From: a virus
Strand: one strand, 5' to 3'
Virus record (IMG/VR): IMGVR_UViG_3300022925_000159
Coordinates: 1-25,694 of that record
DNA length: 25,694 nt
Of this stretch, positions 4,495-22,567 are shown piece by piece (position 1 is the first letter of the stretch; each line of letters starts with the position of its first letter). The translations under genes were made by a program, and so were the position numbers. Below the pieces are notes generated by a model that ran no database searches, was not told the DNA's origin, and was given only the letters and a program-made list of their open reading frames with translations.

Positions 4495-4935
4495 TTATGC
4501 CTCCACGAATACTGAGCCAGCCTTGGTCATTCCTAGACGCTCAAAAAATTTGTCTTTACGCTCAAGATCGCCAGAGAAGATGTGACCCAGTCTCACAGTT
4601 AGTTTAGCGTCATTTGCTGTTTCGATAAAGTTTTTAATTAGTTTTAGTGCTATTGTTCCTTTCCGATGCTTCGGTGAAACATAAAACCAAAGGTCTGCAA
4701 GATAAGGTTGATCAGACCACCAGTCTTGACCTACCATCCCTCCAACAGAACCCATCAATTCATTTCCTTCATCTAATGCCACAAATACAACACCTCTGTG
4801 TATGACCTCATTGATTTTATTTATCATCTTTTCGCTATTGATTGGTGGAGTCGGTATTTCAGTTTGCTCATGCATTTCTGCTAACATACCAATCAAAGCA
4901 CTCAAATCAAGTGGGCCAGCTCTCCTTATTTCCAT
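4495..4935 (-). CDS. GNAT-family N-acetyltransferase (146 aa)
   Basis: A 146-residue protein with the GNAT fold: N-terminal MEIRRAGPLDLSALIGMLAE, a strand pair GVVFVALDEGNELMGSVGGM, then motif A at 81-105 (DLWFYVSPKHRKGTIALKLI), where HRKGTIA replaces the classical RxxGxG/A loop for acetyl-CoA, and a C-terminal FFERLGMTKAGSVFVE strand. Some phage GNAT-like proteins share this HRxGxxA form. Acetyltransferases move acetyl groups from acetyl-CoA to amines; the substrate cannot be read from sequence. The location inside the internal-virion gene run is unusual for an enzyme and suggests either modification of a virion protein or a structural use of the fold. Confidence 0.8.
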   Translation of the reverse strand: MEIRRAGPLDLSALIGMLAEMHEQTEIPTPPINSEKMINKINEVIHRGVVFVALDEGNELMGSVGGMVGQDWWSDQPYLADLWFYVSPKHRKGTIALKLIKNFIETANDAKLTVRLGHIFSGDLERKDKFFERLGMTKAGSVFVEA

Positions 4936-10466: not shown

Positions 10467-13400
10467 TTAGTTGGACTCAAGTGCGGCTATACGAGCATTA
10501 GCCTCATCTAGTTGTTGTTTCAGTTCTTTAACTGCATTAACCAGATACCAAGTCATGTTATCTGGGTCTACTGACAGAACGCCTGTAGATTCTTCTTTTA
10601 CCATATCTGGTAATACTTGCTGTATCTCTTGTGCGATTACACCAAGCTGTAAGCCTTCTTTCCTGATAACATTTTTAGCATCAAGTTCTGTAATTTCATC
10701 TTCAGTGCGATACTCAAAGTTGCGAACTTGAACTTGTGTGATTGCATCAAGACCAGTTGTGTTGTCTACAATGTTTTTCTTCAGTCTGCGGTCAGATGTT
10801 GTTGACCAGCTAGATGAGTTGTTACCTTGGTAGACACCCCCACCTCCGGGATAAATAAATCCAGTGGATGTTCCTTTGTCATAAATGTCTGTGTTATCAG
10901 CAACAATGTTAATGGCATAGTTTGCAGTTGCAGTTGACCTTGCTCTACGACCAATATAAACATTACCACTACCTGTCGTTAGGTAGATACCAGCCCCATA
11001 TCCAACAGCCACATTATCTGAACCACTCGTTGTAGTATAGGCAGAATCACCACCTATAAATGTATTATTACTACCTGTGGTCATTGCACCACCAGCATAA
11101 TACCCAATACCAGTATTACCACCGCCTGTGCTAGTTGTGAGAGCAGATGAACCTACTGCAGTGCTATAGTTACTAGTTACATTTGCGTCTAAAGCATTAT
11201 TACCAATGGCGGTATTCTGGATTCCCGTGGTATTAGCATACATTGCATTGTAACCCATCGCAGTGTTAAAGTTTGCAGTGGTGTTTGCTTGCAGTGCAGC
11301 TCTGCCTAATGCCGTATTATACGAACCTGTTGTGTTGCCTTGCAGGTTTGCATAACCAACAGCAGAATTATATTGTCCAGTTGTATTTGCATTTAAGGCA
11401 TAAGCACCAGCTCCTACATTTTCTGTGCCAGTGGTGTTAGAATACGAAGCACGATAACCCACAGCCACATTGTTAGAAGCGGTGGTGTTAGAATACAACG
11501 TATCAGTGCCAACAGCCACGTTAGAAACACCAGACGTGTTGCTGTAAAGAGATTGAAAGCCAAGCCCTACAACATTGTTACCAGTGGTGTTAGAATACAA
11601 AGAGCGATAGCCAAGCGCATCAACATAAAAACCAGTAGTAGTACTATACCCAGACTGATAACCAATAGCGGTGTTGTTGGATGCGGTGGTGTTGAATCGC
11701 AAGGCTTGTCTACCAAGTGCGGTATTATAATTGCCTGTCGTATTTGCATACAAAGACAACACACCCATTGCAGTGTTGTTTGTTCCTGTTGTGTTGGAAT
11801 ACAAAGCCTCATCGCCAAAAGCTGTTACCTCACCTGTGGTGTTGCTGTAGCCAGCTTTATTGCCAACGACAGTTATAGGTGAGCCTGTTGTATTGCTATA
11901 TCCCGCTAAATTACCGATAGCTACATTTTCAGATGCAGTGGTATTATTACGAAGCGCATCCTGACCCATAGCAACACTGTAATTGCCAGTTGTGTTTGAC
12001 ATTAAAGCTCTACGACCAACACCCACATTATATGTTCCTGTTGTATTGGTATAAAGTGAAGATACGCCAAACGCAGTGTTATTACTTGCTGTGTTAAAAT
12101 ATAGAGTGCTTTCCCCAACAGCAGTGTTGCTGCTGCCTGTAGAGTTAGTATAACTGGTCAGTCTTCCTACAGCAGTGTTGCCCGCACCTGTCGTATTACT
12201 ATATCCAGCCTGATACCCCACACCAGTGTTGTTGTTTGCGGTGGTGTTGGAGTAAAGTGCTTGATGACCAATGGCAGTGCTATTGGTGGCAGTGGTGCTA
12301 TTCTGTAACGCACCTGTACCTATACCAATGTTATTAGTATCTCCTGTACCTGCAAAAGTTGTAAGTGCTAGATAACCAATACCAATGTTATTAGACGCAG
12401 TTGTTACTGCATCAAGTGCTTCATTACCAATCCCTATGTTATTATTACCTGTGGTATTTGCATATACTGCACGATATCCTAAACCGATTGTTCTTGTACC
12501 AGTAGTATTACTATACCCTGCCTGATAACCCACTGCTGTGTTGTTAGATGCTGTGGTGTTTGACCCAAGTGCATTTGCACCCACCCCTGTGTTAAATATA
12601 CCTGTTGAGTTTGCATCTAAAGCAGATTGCCCAACTGCGGTGTTTTGATAACCAGTCGAATTTGAGGTAAGAGCTTGATATCCAACAGCAGTGTTGTTAT
12701 CGGCGGTAGTATTCGTGCCTAAAGCCCCTCGTCCAACAGCCACGCTATTGTTGCCTGTCGTGTTGTTTTGCAGAGCCACATACCCAACTGCTACAAGGCT
12801 GCTGCCTGTAGTATTGTCGTAACCAGCCCTCCATCCAACAGCAGTGTTGTTGGACGCAGTTACTTGTGTGTCAAGAGCCTGATGGCCAAGTGCTGTATTA
12901 TAACCGCCAGTGGTCGTATTACGCAGGGAATAGTTACCAACTGCTATATTGTATACGCCAGTGGTATTGCTAAGCAAAGCATTACTACCAAAAGCCACAT
13001 TGTCACTAGCTGTGGTGTTGGCTGACAGTGCCGAAGCACCAAAAGCGTTTAAGCGTGTGCCAGTGGTGTTTGCGTCTAACGAGTATATACCCACTGCCGT
13101 ATTGCTTGCACCTGTCGTGTTTGCTAACAGTGACTGATACCCAACTGCTGTGTTGTTGTTTGCGGTGGTGGTGGCTTTTAATGCCTCTCCTCCAACTGCT
13201 GTATTATAATCTCCGGTAGTTACAGCAACACCTGCTGCCCTGCCTACGAAAACACTCATGTCTGCAGTAGTCGAAGCAAATCCAGCATTAGCACCAAGTG
13301 CAGTATTATTGCCACCAGAAGTTAATGCAGTTAGTGTGTTTAGCCCAACAGCAACATTGTAGTTTCCTGTTAAACTGCCATCATCTAACGCAGCATCACC

Positions 13401-14327
13401 CAACGCCACATTGCCTGTGCCAGTCGGATAATTGCCGTCCAGTTTAATCGTGCCGCTGGAAACATCTAGGTTTGTCCCGACTGTTAAACCTGCACCAGTT
13501 GTAACAAGTTGGCTGTTATCAATTGTGATTGCTGCTGTGCCACCAGTTTTGAAAATGATCGAGTCATTGTCAGAGTCTGAATTTGTGCCACCTTGAATCT
13601 CAATATAACTTTGAGTTGTGCCACCTCTTTTCAGGCTGATTGTAAGTTTGCCAGCCTCACCTGTTGTTTCGTTTGTTTCTGGTGCTGTTACGGCGATGTT
13701 AGCATATTCAACATCTGCTACAGAAACACCCCCAGCACCATCATCGGTGTTAGCGTGGAAAACAATTTTTGAAATTGCATCACCATCTGCTGGGCTAGCA
13801 GAGTTCCGATACATCTTCATGTCTGGCCCAGAAGCAGACCCAGCATTGGTTGATTCTGCTGTGATGAAGTTTCCTGTGCCTGTGCCTTCTATAAAAATAG
13901 AGTCAGTGAAGTAACCATCGTCAATAGCATTGACAGCTCCTGTTGAGGCATCAACATAAACAATTGCTGCTCTGCCATTTGGAATTGTTACTCCTGATCC
14001 ACCTGAAGTTTTGAATGTCAGGTCATAACCACCACTAGTTCCGTTTTTGAAGATATAAACTTTGTCAACATCAGGAACAATGACTTCCCTCGCAGCTGTA
14101 AGAACGCCAGTCATAAGCACAACAGCGTTACGAGCCTCATCAGTCGAGCCATTATTGGTGGTCAGGGTGTAACTTGCTGAGTCATCATGTGTTACGGAGG
14201 CGACTCCTGTAACAGCTTGCTCAAGAAGCGTTCCCAGATTTGTGTTGGTTATTGTTCCCCATGTGCCTGACTTTTCGCCATCAGCCATGAGTTCCAGTCG
14301 GAGATTGGTTGAATAAGTGCTAGGCAT
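10467..14327 (-). CDS. Giant repeat tail fibre with S74 self-cleaving chaperone (1286 aa)
   Basis: The largest gene here. Residues 1-140 form a virion-attachment head (TYSTNLRLELMADGEKSGTW, NLGTLLEQAVTG, VYIFKNGTSGG). Residues 150-305 are a beta-rich linker. Residues 306-1137 hold about 49 tandem 17-residue units of consensus TAVGYQALYSNTTGNNN, like the YadA/trimeric-adhesin head beta-roll. Residues 1178-1286 are the intramolecular chaperone of the peptidase S74 family: SDRRLKKNI with Ser1178 and Lys1183 at the spacing of the catalytic pair, LQLGVIAQEIQQVLPDMVKE, and a C-terminal coiled coil (VKELKQQLDEANARIAALES). Cleavage before Ser1178 would release a 109-residue chaperone after trimer folding. 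It should bind the host surface. AGAGGA precedes the ATG. Confidence 0.85.
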   Translation of the reverse strand: MPSTYSTNLRLELMADGEKSGTWGTITNTNLGTLLEQAVTGVASVTHDDSASYTLTTNNGSTDEARNAVVLMTGVLTAAREVIVPDVDKVYIFKNGTSGGYDLTFKTSGGSGVTIPNGRAAIVYVDASTGAVNAIDDGYFTDSIFIEGTGTGNFITAESTNAGSASGPDMKMYRNSASPADGDAISKIVFHANTDDGAGGVSVADVEYANIAVTAPETNETTGEAGKLTISLKRGGTTQSYIEIQGGTNSDSDNDSIIFKTGGTAAITIDNSQLVTTGAGLTVGTNLDVSSGTIKLDGNYPTGTGNVALGDAALDDGSLTGNYNVAVGLNTLTALTSGGNNTALGANAGFASTTADMSVFVGRAAGVAVTTGDYNTAVGGEALKATTTANNNTAVGYQSLLANTTGASNTAVGIYSLDANTTGTRLNAFGASALSANTTASDNVAFGSNALLSNTTGVYNIAVGNYSLRNTTTGGYNTALGHQALDTQVTASNNTAVGWRAGYDNTTGSSLVAVGYVALQNNTTGNNSVAVGRGALGTNTTADNNTAVGYQALTSNSTGYQNTAVGQSALDANSTGIFNTGVGANALGSNTTASNNTAVGYQAGYSNTTGTRTIGLGYRAVYANTTGNNNIGIGNEALDAVTTASNNIGIGYLALTTFAGTGDTNNIGIGTGALQNSTTATNSTAIGHQALYSNTTANNNTGVGYQAGYSNTTGAGNTAVGRLTSYTNSTGSSNTAVGESTLYFNTASNNTAFGVSSLYTNTTGTYNVGVGRRALMSNTTGNYSVAMGQDALRNNTTASENVAIGNLAGYSNTTGSPITVVGNKAGYSNTTGEVTAFGDEALYSNTTGTNNTAMGVLSLYANTTGNYNTALGRQALRFNTTASNNTAIGYQSGYSTTTGFYVDALGYRSLYSNTTGNNVVGLGFQSLYSNTSGVSNVAVGTDTLYSNTTASNNVAVGYRASYSNTTGTENVGAGAYALNANTTGQYNSAVGYANLQGNTTGSYNTALGRAALQANTTANFNTAMGYNAMYANTTGIQNTAIGNNALDANVTSNYSTAVGSSALTTSTGGGNTGIGYYAGGAMTTGSNNTFIGGDSAYTTTSGSDNVAVGYGAGIYLTTGSGNVYIGRRARSTATANYAINIVADNTDIYDKGTSTGFIYPGGGGVYQGNNSSSWSTTSDRRLKKNIVDNTTGLDAITQVQVRNFEYRTEDEITELDAKNVIRKEGLQLGVIAQEIQQVLPDMVKEESTGVLSVDPDNMTWYLVNAVKELKQQLDEANARIAALESN
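10923..13412 (-). repeat. About 49 tandem 51-base coding repeats in the fibre gene
   Basis: The period is exactly 51 bases where I measured it (GTGGTGTTAGAATAC on the plus strand at 11431 and 11482). Protein units keep A-x-G, the Asn-Thr-Thr-Gly/Ala turn and Asn residues. Most copies vary at third positions, so they are old copies under protein-level selection. A few units are one residue short (around TLYFNTASNN) or long (TTFAGTGDTNN). Confidence 0.85.
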
Positions 14328-19051: not shown

Positions 19052-19960
19052 TTATGCTCCTTCGGAACCGAAGATGCCACGCCAATCGGTGAAGCCGAAC
19101 GAATAACGCTCACGCACCTTATAGCGAACATTGCCAGTTTCAAAGTCACCTTCCATGCCTTTTTTAAGAGGCGAACGCTGGAAGTGCTTCAGGCCATCAG
19201 GAACATCCGTCATAATGAAGAATGAATCTGAATCTGACAGACGACGCATCACATGGTAACCCTGAGGCAGATAACCACCTGCTCGGATTGCGTTGATGTC
19301 GTTGTCAGCAGTGCCTGTGCGTAGCTGAGACTCAAGCAGACGCTCTGCAACAAAACTATATGCAGTCGGGATGACTAGCATTGTGCCTTGTGCAGCGATA
19401 CGAAGACCACGATCGTCTTTCATGTCTGCAATTTGAATCAGCATTTGTTCCAGAGAAGTTTCTGAAAGGTCTGCTGCGGTTGCCAAAGTGTTTGACTGGT
19501 TACCAGAACGAGTCGGGTGATCAGTTGCACACAGTGTTTTACCATCACCACCAGTTACGCCTGAACCGCTGAAAGCATTGTTCAGAACATTAGCTGCTTT
19601 GATTTCCTTTGTGGAAGCCATTGAGCGAGCCAATGCTTTTGTGTAACGAGCAGCGATTGAGCCATAGAGACCATCTTCTTCGGCTTCTTCTGTGATGCTG
19701 AATGCCAAAGCAATTGTCTCATGCTGATAGCGAGCAGTCCATTGCTGGCTTGCTGCGTCATAAGAGATTGCTGCACCTTCCGCTTTCACAGGAGCATTGC
19801 CAAAGCCTTCCAAAAGAACATCTTCTTCAAATGCCTTCTGAGAGGTGTTGGTGTCAAAGACTGCCTGCCACTCTGGTGGATATTGATCATACTCGAGGCC
19901 AAAAAGGGTGTTTAGTCCTGGCTCGAGCATTTTTGCAAATTGTGCTCTATTCATTGCCAT
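19052..19960 (-). CDS. Major capsid protein (302 aa)
   Basis: A 302-residue protein that I recognise as the Mu gpT-like major head subunit type found widely in marine phages. Diagnostic segments are LEPGLNTLFGLEYDQYPPEW, an ALAFSITEEAEEDGLYGSIA helix, LARSMASTKEIKAANVLNNA, LCATDHPT, MLVIPTAYSFVAERLLESQL, and the C-terminal MEGDFETGNVRYKVRERYSF. It should fold as the HK97-type coat. There is no long N-terminal delta domain, in keeping with a separate scaffold gene. AGGAGG stands nine bases before ATG, one of the strongest sites in the window, as expected for the most abundant virion protein. A strong hairpin follows its stop. Confidence 0.9.
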   Translation of the reverse strand: MAMNRAQFAKMLEPGLNTLFGLEYDQYPPEWQAVFDTNTSQKAFEEDVLLEGFGNAPVKAEGAAISYDAASQQWTARYQHETIALAFSITEEAEEDGLYGSIAARYTKALARSMASTKEIKAANVLNNAFSGSGVTGGDGKTLCATDHPTRSGNQSNTLATAADLSETSLEQMLIQIADMKDDRGLRIAAQGTMLVIPTAYSFVAERLLESQLRTGTADNDINAIRAGGYLPQGYHVMRRLSDSDSFFIMTDVPDGLKHFQRSPLKKGMEGDFETGNVRYKVRERYSFGFTDWRGIFGSEGA

Positions 19961-19973
19961 TGTTTATACCCTC

Positions 19974-20525
19974 CTATATGCCAGCTGTTGCTTTCAGGAC
20001 ATGCTCGTTGATGAGCACTTCCATAACAGCGTTAGTCCCAAATGCATTCTCAGGTGCGTCATACAACGCAATGATTTTGCACTGGGCAGTTCCTGCTGCC
20101 ATAGTTCCTGAAATTTCAAAGCCAGATTGGCCTGTTGTGGTTGAACCTGCCCCAGCAACAATATCGGCACAGTTACCGATGTTTGTCTGAGCAGGACTGC
20201 CAGCTGATTGAGCCTTGAACACAATATACGGATCATCGTAAACATATGCGATAATATCCGTAGCGGTTGTGCCTGAAGGCCAATATTCGCTGTAAACGTA
20301 AGAGCCATCACTTGCAGTGTATGAACATCCTGCGAACACACCAATGATATTTACCTCTGTAGCACCTGCAGGCTGAAGCGTGCCATCCGCTGCGAGGATG
20401 ACGGCATCGCCGTTAAAGATGTTCTCTGCGAGACCAGAGGTAATGGTGTATTTGTTAGCACGAGGTGCATAACCGCTCATGTGGCGAACTGGGATAAACC
20501 CAAAGGCTGCATCTGCATTTGCCAT
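19974..20525 (-). CDS. Head decoration-like / capsid-stabilising protein (183 aa)
   Basis: A 183-residue beta-rich protein. It opens with MANADAAFGFIPVRHMSGYA, then alternates short strands with Gly/Thr turns: NIFNGDAVILAADGTLQPAG, GVFAGCSYTASDG, AYVYDDPYIVFKAQ. This opening and the VYDDPxxxFxxQ segment are what I associate with small proteins that sit just upstream of the coat gene in marine phages and are usually labelled head decoration or structural. AAGGAG precedes the ATG. The final codons contain the AGGAGG that serves the coat gene. A capsid surface role is likely, not proven. Confidence 0.7.
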   Translation of the reverse strand: MANADAAFGFIPVRHMSGYAPRANKYTITSGLAENIFNGDAVILAADGTLQPAGATEVNIIGVFAGCSYTASDGSYVYSEYWPSGTTATDIIAYVYDDPYIVFKAQSAGSPAQTNIGNCADIVAGAGSTTTGQSGFEISGTMAAGTAQCKIIALYDAPENAFGTNAVMEVLINEHVLKATAGI

Positions 20526-20548: not shown

Positions 20549-21034
20549 TTAATCGTCAGCCATGACCGAGATGTCTCGACCAGAGCTACTAGTTGATTTC
20601 CTATCCTGGTGAATAGGAATGCCCCCTGTCCTTGCCATCGCATCAAGTTCTCCTGGAATTGATTCGTTCTGCTCTTCAGCCCGACCACGATAGTAGTCTT
20701 TCATGGCTTTGAACTTCTCTTCAGGCATCTCACAAAGGATCATGCCTTCAACTCCTATTGAACCTGCCCACTGTCCGTGATTGATAGTTGGGAATCTCTG
20801 ATCTTTCACTGAATCAGCAGGGCGAGGATTCCAGCCTGCACGCATACGCTTGTATACATTGTCTGGAGTCTCTCTACCCTGAATCGAGGTAGCAATCCAT
20901 CGTTGAACCATCCCAGGACGGGGATCGGGTGCGTCCAACAATGATGGTGGTTTCCATGCAGTATCGGGACGAGCATCCCCTGCACGGAGTTCGGAACGAG
21001 ATTCTTGTGCACGCACATTTCTATTATTAGCCAT
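20549..21034 (-). CDS. Conserved capsid-region phage protein of unknown function (161 aa)
   Basis: A 161-residue protein. Recognisable segments are the N-terminal RNVRAQESRSELRAG, the central WKPPSLLDAPDPRPGMVQRW, and GWNPRPADSVKD followed by INHGQWAGSIGVEGMILCEM. From memory this combination is conserved between scaffold and coat genes in several uncultured marine phages, but no role is established. A GAGGAG site formed by the final codons of the scaffold gene precedes the start, so expression is likely coupled to scaffold. No transmembrane segment. A structural or assembly function is inferred from position and conservation. Confidence 0.75.
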   Translation of the reverse strand: MANNRNVRAQESRSELRAGDARPDTAWKPPSLLDAPDPRPGMVQRWIATSIQGRETPDNVYKRMRAGWNPRPADSVKDQRFPTINHGQWAGSIGVEGMILCEMPEEKFKAMKDYYRGRAEEQNESIPGELDAMARTGGIPIHQDRKSTSSSGRDISVMADD

Positions 21035-21036
21035 GG

Positions 21037-21933
21037 TTAGCTCCTCTGCTGTTTGATCTCATTAGCATAACGCTTCAGAGATTTTTCATCATTAATACCG
21101 AGTTCTCTAGCCATTCGTAACTGATCCTGTGTCATGCGAACCCTGTTTCCTTTGTAAGTTCCCGAACCGCCTGCAGTTGGGGCGACTGGTGCTCTGCTTT
21201 TTGCTCGAGGCTTACTTTGCTCGCCTCCTGAGTTTAACTCGGGAAAGACATTAAGTAAACGATTATTAAGCAGTTCGTAATAATCATCACTATTTTTGTC
21301 ATGACCTTCAAGGTCCAACTGCACATCAATTGCCCGTGCAGCCGCAGTTTCCCGCTCAAATCCAGGAGAATTAAACCAGCGATTTTTCTGCCACCAGTCC
21401 ATTGCTTTTGGTGGTGCAGGTTGCTGGGCAACTTGCTGAGCACGACCGACTGTTGGTGAAATAGACTGTGCAGCAGCTTGTTGTTTTTGCATCTCAGCGA
21501 TACGGATAGCAGCACGCATATCAGCAAGTTGCTCGGTGAAATTCAGCTGTGCTTGAGTGTCACCTTCTTCAACTGCCTTTGTTAGTGCTTGCTTTGTTTG
21601 CTCGTAACGCTGATGAAATTCGTTCTCAGCCCTATGAGTGTTGCCTTGCTCAAGACGCTCAAGCCTTGCTTGGAGTTGTGCGACTTGTTCTTGAGCCTGA
21701 CGAGTTTGAACCTCAGCATCTCTGCGTTGGTCTACAAGTTTTTTGATTCGGTTTTGGACTTTGGCTCCGTATTCAGAGTCTTCACTATCGGACTCTTTTT
21801 CTTTTGCCGCAACCTCTTCTTGAGGCTCTTCAGCCTCGTCTTCGGCGATTTCGATTTCAAGATCGTCATCTTTTTGACCTTTGGTCTTTTCAATCTCTTT
21901 TTCGATCTCTGCCAATACTTCTTCTTGTGACAT
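21037..21933 (-). CDS. Capsid scaffolding protein (298 aa)
   Basis: A 298-residue protein with the usual scaffold layout. The N-terminal 60 residues are very acidic (EIEIAEDEAEEPQEE), then comes a long Gln/Ala/Glu-rich coiled coil (about residues 60-170, RQAQEQVAQLQARLERLEQG). A Pro-rich linker follows, and the C-terminal region is basic (QLRMARELGI to the end), as expected for a capsid-binding helix. Scaffolds fill the procapsid and guide coat assembly, then leave. I chose the ATG at 21933 because GGAGG lies eight bases before it; the earlier in-frame ATG at 21948 has no such site. Position two genes before decoration and coat proteins supports the call. Confidence 0.8.
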   Translation of the reverse strand: MSQEEVLAEIEKEIEKTKGQKDDDLEIEIAEDEAEEPQEEVAAKEKESDSEDSEYGAKVQNRIKKLVDQRRDAEVQTRQAQEQVAQLQARLERLEQGNTHRAENEFHQRYEQTKQALTKAVEEGDTQAQLNFTEQLADMRAAIRIAEMQKQQAAAQSISPTVGRAQQVAQQPAPPKAMDWWQKNRWFNSPGFERETAAARAIDVQLDLEGHDKNSDDYYELLNNRLLNVFPELNSGGEQSKPRAKSRAPVAPTAGGSGTYKGNRVRMTQDQLRMARELGINDEKSLKRYANEIKQQRS

Positions 21934-21959
21934 GGTAGCGTCCTCCATGGTTATTTCGC

Positions 21960-22364
21960 TTAGTCTACATAAGATGTCAGTGTTGCACCTTCTGGGATGA
22001 TTGAGGTGATCTCATCATCATTCAGCAGAAGCATCTTTACACCATTTACTGTTAATTTCTGGCCAGCATATTTGCCATATGTGACCCGATCACCGATTTC
22101 AGGCCAATCGCCTTTCCATCTTTGACCAGTATCACGATCGCGATATGCGAGTTCCCCTTGTGCCAGAATAGTTCCGTGGGCTGTCAGGTATTCTTCGTTT
22201 TCCACGCTTTGAGACGGAAGGTAAATACCACCTTTTGTTTTCTTCTTCGCCTGATTTGGCTGAACAAGAACTTTCCATCCCATTGGTTTGGGGAATTGAT
22301 GCGACCCTAAAGTCGCCTTTGTTTCCTCATCAGTGATGAGATCTTTTGCATGTGGATGAGACAT
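21960..22364 (-). CDS. Phage GroES-like co-chaperonin (Cpn10)
   Basis: A 134-residue protein that matches the GroES/Cpn10 fold. Residues 25-70 correspond to the first GroES strands and mobile loop: WKVLVQP, then a basic loop (KKKTKGG), IYL at 47-49 in the place of the IVL tripeptide that grips GroEL, and a later TILAQG segment like GEVLAVG. Residues 89-122 (IGDRVTYGKYAG, KMLLLNDDEITSII) match the GroES C-terminal half. It carries about 20 extra N-terminal residues and a longer roof-loop region (YRDRDTGQRWKGDW). Phage T4 gp31 and other viral Cpn10s replace host GroES so that GroEL can fold the capsid protein. Its place directly before scaffold and capsid genes fits that role. Confidence 0.85.
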   Translation of the reverse strand: MSHPHAKDLITDEETKATLGSHQFPKPMGWKVLVQPNQAKKKTKGGIYLPSQSVENEEYLTAHGTILAQGELAYRDRDTGQRWKGDWPEIGDRVTYGKYAGQKLTVNGVKMLLLNDDEITSIIPEGATLTSYVD

Positions 22365-22366
22365 GG

Positions 22367-22567
22367 TTATGCATCCTCTTCATTATCAAGTTTTTTCATC
22401 ATTTCACTGATGATGTCATGGGCTCTGTCGAGACCCTCAGCAACACCAGCGTTCTTTTTATATGCCTCGTGGTCTTGCATACGACCAAGAACCATATTCT
22501 CAGCTATCGCTGACCTCTCCTCTTTCAGAGTCTTTTGGATCTTTTTCAGCAGATCTATCACTGTCAT
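22367..22567 (-). CDS. Small helical protein of unknown function (66 aa)
   Basis: A 66-residue, mainly helical and charged protein: MTVIDLLKKIQKTLKEERSA, then a central MQDHEAYKK segment, and a C-terminal helix ending in DNEEDA. A GGAG eight bases before ATG supports the start. It sits immediately upstream of the GroES-like gene, with its stop two bases before the AACC-ATG of that gene, so it is probably co-translated. I recall similar short proteins next to the capsid genes of other marine podoviruses, without assigned function. A coiled-coil or dimeric assembly factor is possible. Confidence 0.7.
   Translation of the reverse strand: MTVIDLLKKIQKTLKEERSAIAENMVLGRMQDHEAYKKNAGVAEGLDRAHDIISEMMKKLDNEEDA

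Follow-up and report, generated by a model that had tools for sequence, protein, structure and literature searches.

Does a phage with a small coat protein need a GroES of its own, and if so, for what purpose? T4 gp31 is the textbook phage replacement of GroES, and the need for it is usually explained by the size of the coat. The locus analysed here raises the question in another form: in a virus record of 25,694 nucleotides (25.7 kb, an incomplete genome, called 'the window' as a whole below), a groES-like gene stands among the genes of a phage head. The coat of this phage is only 33 kDa, so that the size reason given for T4 does not apply.

A GroES relative encoded ahead of the head genes

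The groES-like open reading frame (ORF) starts with ATG (Table 1), and its 134-aa product is a true relative of Cpn10/GroES. A profile search, set beforehand as the check, gave 54.8 bits against Pfam Cpn10 (PF00166; cut-off 21.1, E 9.9e-15, residues 26 to 122 covered). The protein also matches PHROG 3188 ('co-chaperonin GroES'), the NCBIfam GroES models, with scores under their strict cut-offs, and, by sequence search, solved GroES chains. The AlphaFold2 model (pLDDT 90.3, pTM 0.82) is a Cpn10 barrel. Its best matches among solved folds are Cpn10 chains, with Z scores of 11.3 to 8wuc, 10.8 to 4v4o and 9.5 to 1aon; T4 gp31 follows at 7.4 to 7.8, and the nearest viral folds are many GroES models labelled 'uncultured virus'. 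Alcohol dehydrogenases are in the fold list as well, at Z 6.3 and below, which could point to a chance match with their GroES-like fold. However, the Cpn10 chains (Z 8 to 11) stand well above them and the sequence profile score is far over its cut-off; this explanation is refuted, and we give it practically no credence. The preliminary description of this DNA, which had proposed a GroES-like protein with a GG-IYL mobile-loop tip, was therefore right on both points. Pfam alone overlooks some divergent Cpn10: it reported none in the record G024, where a profile made in this analysis found one.

Downstream of groES, on the same strand, come in order the genes of a 303-aa scaffold-like protein, of a 161-aa and a 183-aa protein, and of the 302-aa major capsid protein, which confirms the position directly ahead of scaffold and capsid genes that had been noted. 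The 303-aa protein is called scaffold-like from its composition and position only. As 11 bases separate the groES stop from the next ATG, the two genes are likely, from this spacing, to share one transcript.

Table 1. Features of the groES-like gene and its neighbours (positions in the window)
Feature	Position	Strand	Evidence
groES-like co-chaperonin, 134 aa, Cpn10 domain at residues 26-122	21960..22364	-	Pfam PF00166, PHROG 3188, fold match to solved Cpn10
Mobile-loop tip GG-IYL, residues 45-49, expected GroEL contact	22218..22232	-	Sequence; clade conservation
Predicted helix, residues 51-60, within segment 4 residues longer than bacterial GroES	22185..22214	-	Length count; AlphaFold2, 2 models
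Roof hairpin region, residues 70-92 (GELAYRDRDTGQRWKGDWPEIGD), 3 residues longer than bacterial	22089..22157	-	Length count, sequence
N-terminal extension, residues 1-25	22290..22364	-	Length count; conserved in CRP-901/902, absent from QDWS535 clade
Scaffold-like protein, 303 aa, acidic, heptad-rich, PHROG 28737 (function unknown)	21037..21948	-	27% identity to same-position HTVC027P protein
Conserved 161-aa protein, PHROG 36003	20549..21034	-	PHROG match
Conserved 183-aa protein, PHROG 37556, putative head decoration/head protein	19974..20525	-	Function inferred from position only
Major capsid protein, 302 aa, 33 kDa, Mu gpT-like	19052..19960	-	Phage_capsid_4 59.9 bits, Mu-like_gpT 38.7 bits, PHROG 371
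66-aa ORF directly ahead of groES, PHROG 32603	22367..22567	-	Relatives have a short ORF at the same place

The window belongs to a CRP-901-type roseophage. Its closest public records are the Roseobacter phages CRP-901 and CRP-902 (GroES 67 to 69% and coat 83% identical), and it has the head-module gene order of that type: short ORF, GroES, about 300 aa, about 160 aa, about 185 aa, coat. This order is common to phages of Roseobacter, Pelagibacter, Caulobacter, Planktothrix and Alcaligenes. Elsewhere on the minus strand, the window encodes a 1286-aa tail spike/fibre protein with a C-terminal Peptidase_S74 self-cleaving chaperone domain (10467-14327), and a GNAT acetyltransferase amid tail/structural genes (4495-4935).

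Anatomy of the phage protein

We aligned 111 phage GroES (representatives at 75% identity) with 40 bacterial GroES. Between the loop-tip Gly and the next conserved Gly, all 40 bacterial proteins have 14 residues; the phage segment has 18 residues in 96 of 111 cases, the window protein among them, and 17 to 22 in 107. By this alignment, what is constant in the clade is a stretch directly behind the GroEL-binding tip that is longer by four residues. In eight other phage GroES (GAP32, Vibrio D93, Shewanella 1/44, Vibrio 1.049, VP505, BcepSaruman, Motura and RAS14), the segment has 13 to 14 residues. The insert, which the preliminary description omitted, is more constant than the roof insert. AlphaFold2 predicts a helix exactly within the lengthened segment, and another at the matching place of a Caulobacter-type relative (34% identical), the two predictions being not fully independent since their alignments overlap. 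Canonical GroES is not known to have a helix at this place, and we found no description in the open literature of a helix-lengthened loop combined with a kept roof.

The tip itself is well conserved: Gly46 is present in 105 of 109 phage representatives, and I, L or V occupies position 47 in 106. A strict version of the motif is failed by 28 of the 109, so that, going by sequence, the contact with GroEL may be different in some subclades.

The roof segment, 18 residues long in bacteria, has a median of 19 in the phages (range 8 to 26) and 21 residues in the window protein, with Trp83 and Trp87. The roof insert with Trp residues that had been reported thus holds as to the two Trp and the greater length, but it amounts to just three residues, at a site of variable length in the clade. 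The additional residues at the N-terminus were confirmed: 26 precede the first conserved Pro, versus a median of 27 in phages and 4 in bacteria. This extension is conserved in CRP-901/902, whereas the QDWS535 clade has hardly any of it.

Coupling to the coat type

How strictly does this gene accompany its coat? Viral contigs of IMG/VR were fetched with the coat proteins of six reference phages, GroES being unused in the fetching; a nine-sequence coat alignment was too diverse for the collection scan, and single coat proteins were therefore taken as queries. Five coat clades were counted (window, HTVC027P, QDWS535, RW and MW202675). Each of the 283 loci with sufficient sequence upstream has a Cpn10 gene before its coat gene, at a distance of 1.8 to 3.5 kb (clade medians about 2.0 to 2.4 kb); the loci without Cpn10 in these clades have at most 2.5 kb of upstream sequence, hence their place outside the 283. 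Dereplicated at 90% coat identity, the five clades have no cluster with a contradicting member. Contigs of bacterial genomes have Cpn10 at 44 of 59 coat loci; each of the remaining 15 is short, gapped or apparently chimeric. Four loci apparently lack GroES: L475 has an N-run across the gene, and L503, L506 and L530 look chimeric or gapped. All four are on public bacterial MAG contigs, the faults lying within phage sequence of this group; one of the contigs is labelled as a Dehalococcoidia chromosome.

In a collection of 50,697 phage records, the coat query found 21, of which 17 also match the GroES query; MW202675, vir526 and MW202601 have a Cpn10 by annotation or profile, so that 20 of the 20 records checked (among 21 public records of this coat type) are positive. 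For comparison, the two GroES queries combined match no more than 111 of the 50,697 records (about 0.2%). The check set beforehand, whether phages of the same capsid type always have the gene by the head genes, has a positive outcome in the informative IMG/VR loci of the five clades. In a published set of 82 HTVC023P-type genomes, GroES is one of 13 core genes (PMC9599517). That every informative same-coat relative checked has the gene suggests that the head proteins of this marine phage need it. We found no description in the open literature of a fixed link of Cpn10 to a coat type across host phyla.

The farthest coat clade, that of vir526 and MW202601, usually has its Cpn10 away from the coat gene, and the gene is present in 4 of 4 records of at least 44 kb, a small sample in which two are near-identical. 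That distant coat relatives keep a non-adjacent Cpn10 suggests a functional as well as a positional link, in as far as few records, two of four near-identical, can tell. The gene lies at 100-453 in vir526 (BK063670, L160) and at 13798-14013 in MW202601 (W07); one virus is assigned to Methanomicrobiales.

Two further arrangements were seen. Record G026 (behind L147, 77.8 kb) has two Cpn10 genes about 57 kb apart, and is perhaps two joined phages. Shewanella phage 1/44 (L594, 5992-6297) and Vibrio phage 1.049 (L595, 5016-5291) have a different Cpn10 within the head-tail cluster, and a coat fused to its protease; this Cpn10 is another possible capsid-linked lid.

GroES and coat distances are correlated (r 0.90, above all 999 permutations), as expected for genes inherited together. 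The conserved neighbourhood and this correlation would also follow from a shared ancestry of the whole head module.

Origin of the gene and supply of GroEL

A tree of phage GroES with bacterial GroES alone splits the two sets with a support of 0.996, one vir526-type (archaeal-virus-type) sequence siding with the bacteria. When other phage GroES were added (FastTree), the phage clade had a support of 0.87 with one archaeal-virus sequence inside, and of 0.32 without it. A single origin of the phage Cpn10 line is likely on these trees. Recent capture of groES from the host was rejected, given an identity of about 33% and the separate branch.

GroEL was sought in 35 long records of the group: the Cpn60 profile found none there, and was positive in 14 of 14 control genomes. 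The window itself is a fragment. If the protein acts as a lid, host GroEL must therefore serve; the lid would come from the phage, and GroEL from the host.

What does the phage GroES do?

In T4, gp31 and host GroEL fold the coat gp23, and GroES is no substitute in that task (PMC3012670). We consider it probable that the present protein likewise caps host GroEL and, made from the head cluster, helps in the folding of at least one product of that cluster (scaffold-like, small head or coat protein). It would be produced just before these proteins; its GG-IYL tip would bind host GroEL, by analogy with gp31, and the lid would close the cage around a head protein. The lengthened arm after the tip may lift the lid, add GroEL contacts or alter affinity; we infer that the loop change acts on cage geometry or affinity. 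Heptamer, GroEL binding and client identity are assumed likewise. Because Cpn10 follows the coat type, the coat is most likely the client, and the 303-aa scaffold-like protein is a second candidate.

Three other explanations were weighed. The gene might be an auxiliary one, with GroES raising the overall folding capacity of the host during infection and no special client in the head. Elsewhere, Cpn10 genes do lie amid nucleotide/metabolism genes (for example, in GAP32, Motura, BcepSaruman and RAS14), and gp31 of T4 is able to stand in for GroES with every E. coli client (PMC6318259). In this group, however, the gene is far from sporadic: it is in every informative locus, with hosts of several phyla, always just before the head genes, and its sequence has departed from the bacterial form; we find this explanation unlikely. 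Being inside the head cluster, the protein might instead have been repurposed for assembly or for the virion, GroEL being no longer used, and its bulky N- and C-terminal tails and the weakened tip motif of some relatives would fit. Yet few positions are as conserved as the mobile-loop Gly and the hydrophobic residue next to it, a pattern not easily accounted for if GroEL were no longer bound, and we regard repurposing as very unlikely.

According to the preliminary description, the longer roof, with the N-terminal extension, might make the cage larger or change its shape to suit the coat. The three added roof residues, the two Trp within, and a Trp or aromatic residue near the roof base that is kept in most of the clade, are in keeping with this. 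But the roof is often shorter than the bacterial one in the clade, the extension is missing in the QDWS535 clade, and a normal cage accommodates a 33-kDa client, for which no enlargement is needed. Cage enlargement by the roof was therefore rejected, and the idea that roof and extension together reshape the cage is quite unlikely. In T4 gp31, the cage is enlarged by longer mobile loops, with no roof (PMC6318259); the change there is at the mobile loop, as is the constant change in CRP-901-type GroES.

Beyond the capping of host GroEL, we tentatively put forward a third mode of co-chaperonin adaptation, more doubtful than the capping itself: an old phage Cpn10 line of single origin, tied to a single coat type in phages whose hosts span several phyla. 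In it, a short helix at the mobile-loop base, with the roof kept, would adapt host GroEL to a small coat or scaffold protein beyond the reach of the host's own GroES. That a whole phage group of sea and fresh water, abundant and with a coat of just 33 kDa, keeps GroES without exception argues for reasons other than coat size. The group offers many natural GroES variants, including that of the lab-growable Caulobacter phage RW, for asking why a phage needs its own lid; we found no experiments on GroES of this clade in the open literature.

Comparison with known systems

The GroES of CRP-901 and CRP-902 (PMC10149686) is orthologous to the window protein at the identities given above, likewise precedes the scaffold-like and coat genes, and is annotated as co-chaperonin GroES. 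The same holds for the GroES of HTVC023P-type pelagiphages (PMC9599517; 37% identity for HTVC027P), annotated as GroES; both differ from the window protein in sequence only. The two papers list GroES, leaving its coupling to the coat and the loop length unanalysed. Phage GroES, and its annotation in relatives, were thus already known; the tight coupling of Cpn10 to the coat type is new.

Viral chaperonin genes are reportedly common in the sea, according to a study of virioplankton chaperonin genes (Marine et al. 2017, ISME J, cited in PMC7185714), which is said to focus on GroEL-carrying viruses. From those viruses, the CRP-901-type group differs in having GroES only.

With bacterial GroES (PF00166), the window protein shares the domain, the fold and the loop tip; it differs by the four extra residues after the tip, its N- and C-terminal tails, a different roof and a separate branch. 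With T4 gp31 and RB49 CocO, it has in common a phage-made lid of Cpn10 fold, no phage GroEL, a lengthened mobile loop and the coat as expected client. However, gp31 has a 22-residue loop, no roof and a coat of about 56 kDa (PMC6318259), whereas the window protein, about 10% identical to it, shows the longer loop (18 versus 14 residues, four over GroES) without the loss of the roof (21 residues versus 18 in bacteria), and goes with a coat of 33 kDa. The best reading is that of a protein gp31-like in action, from a separate Cpn10 line that has kept its roof.
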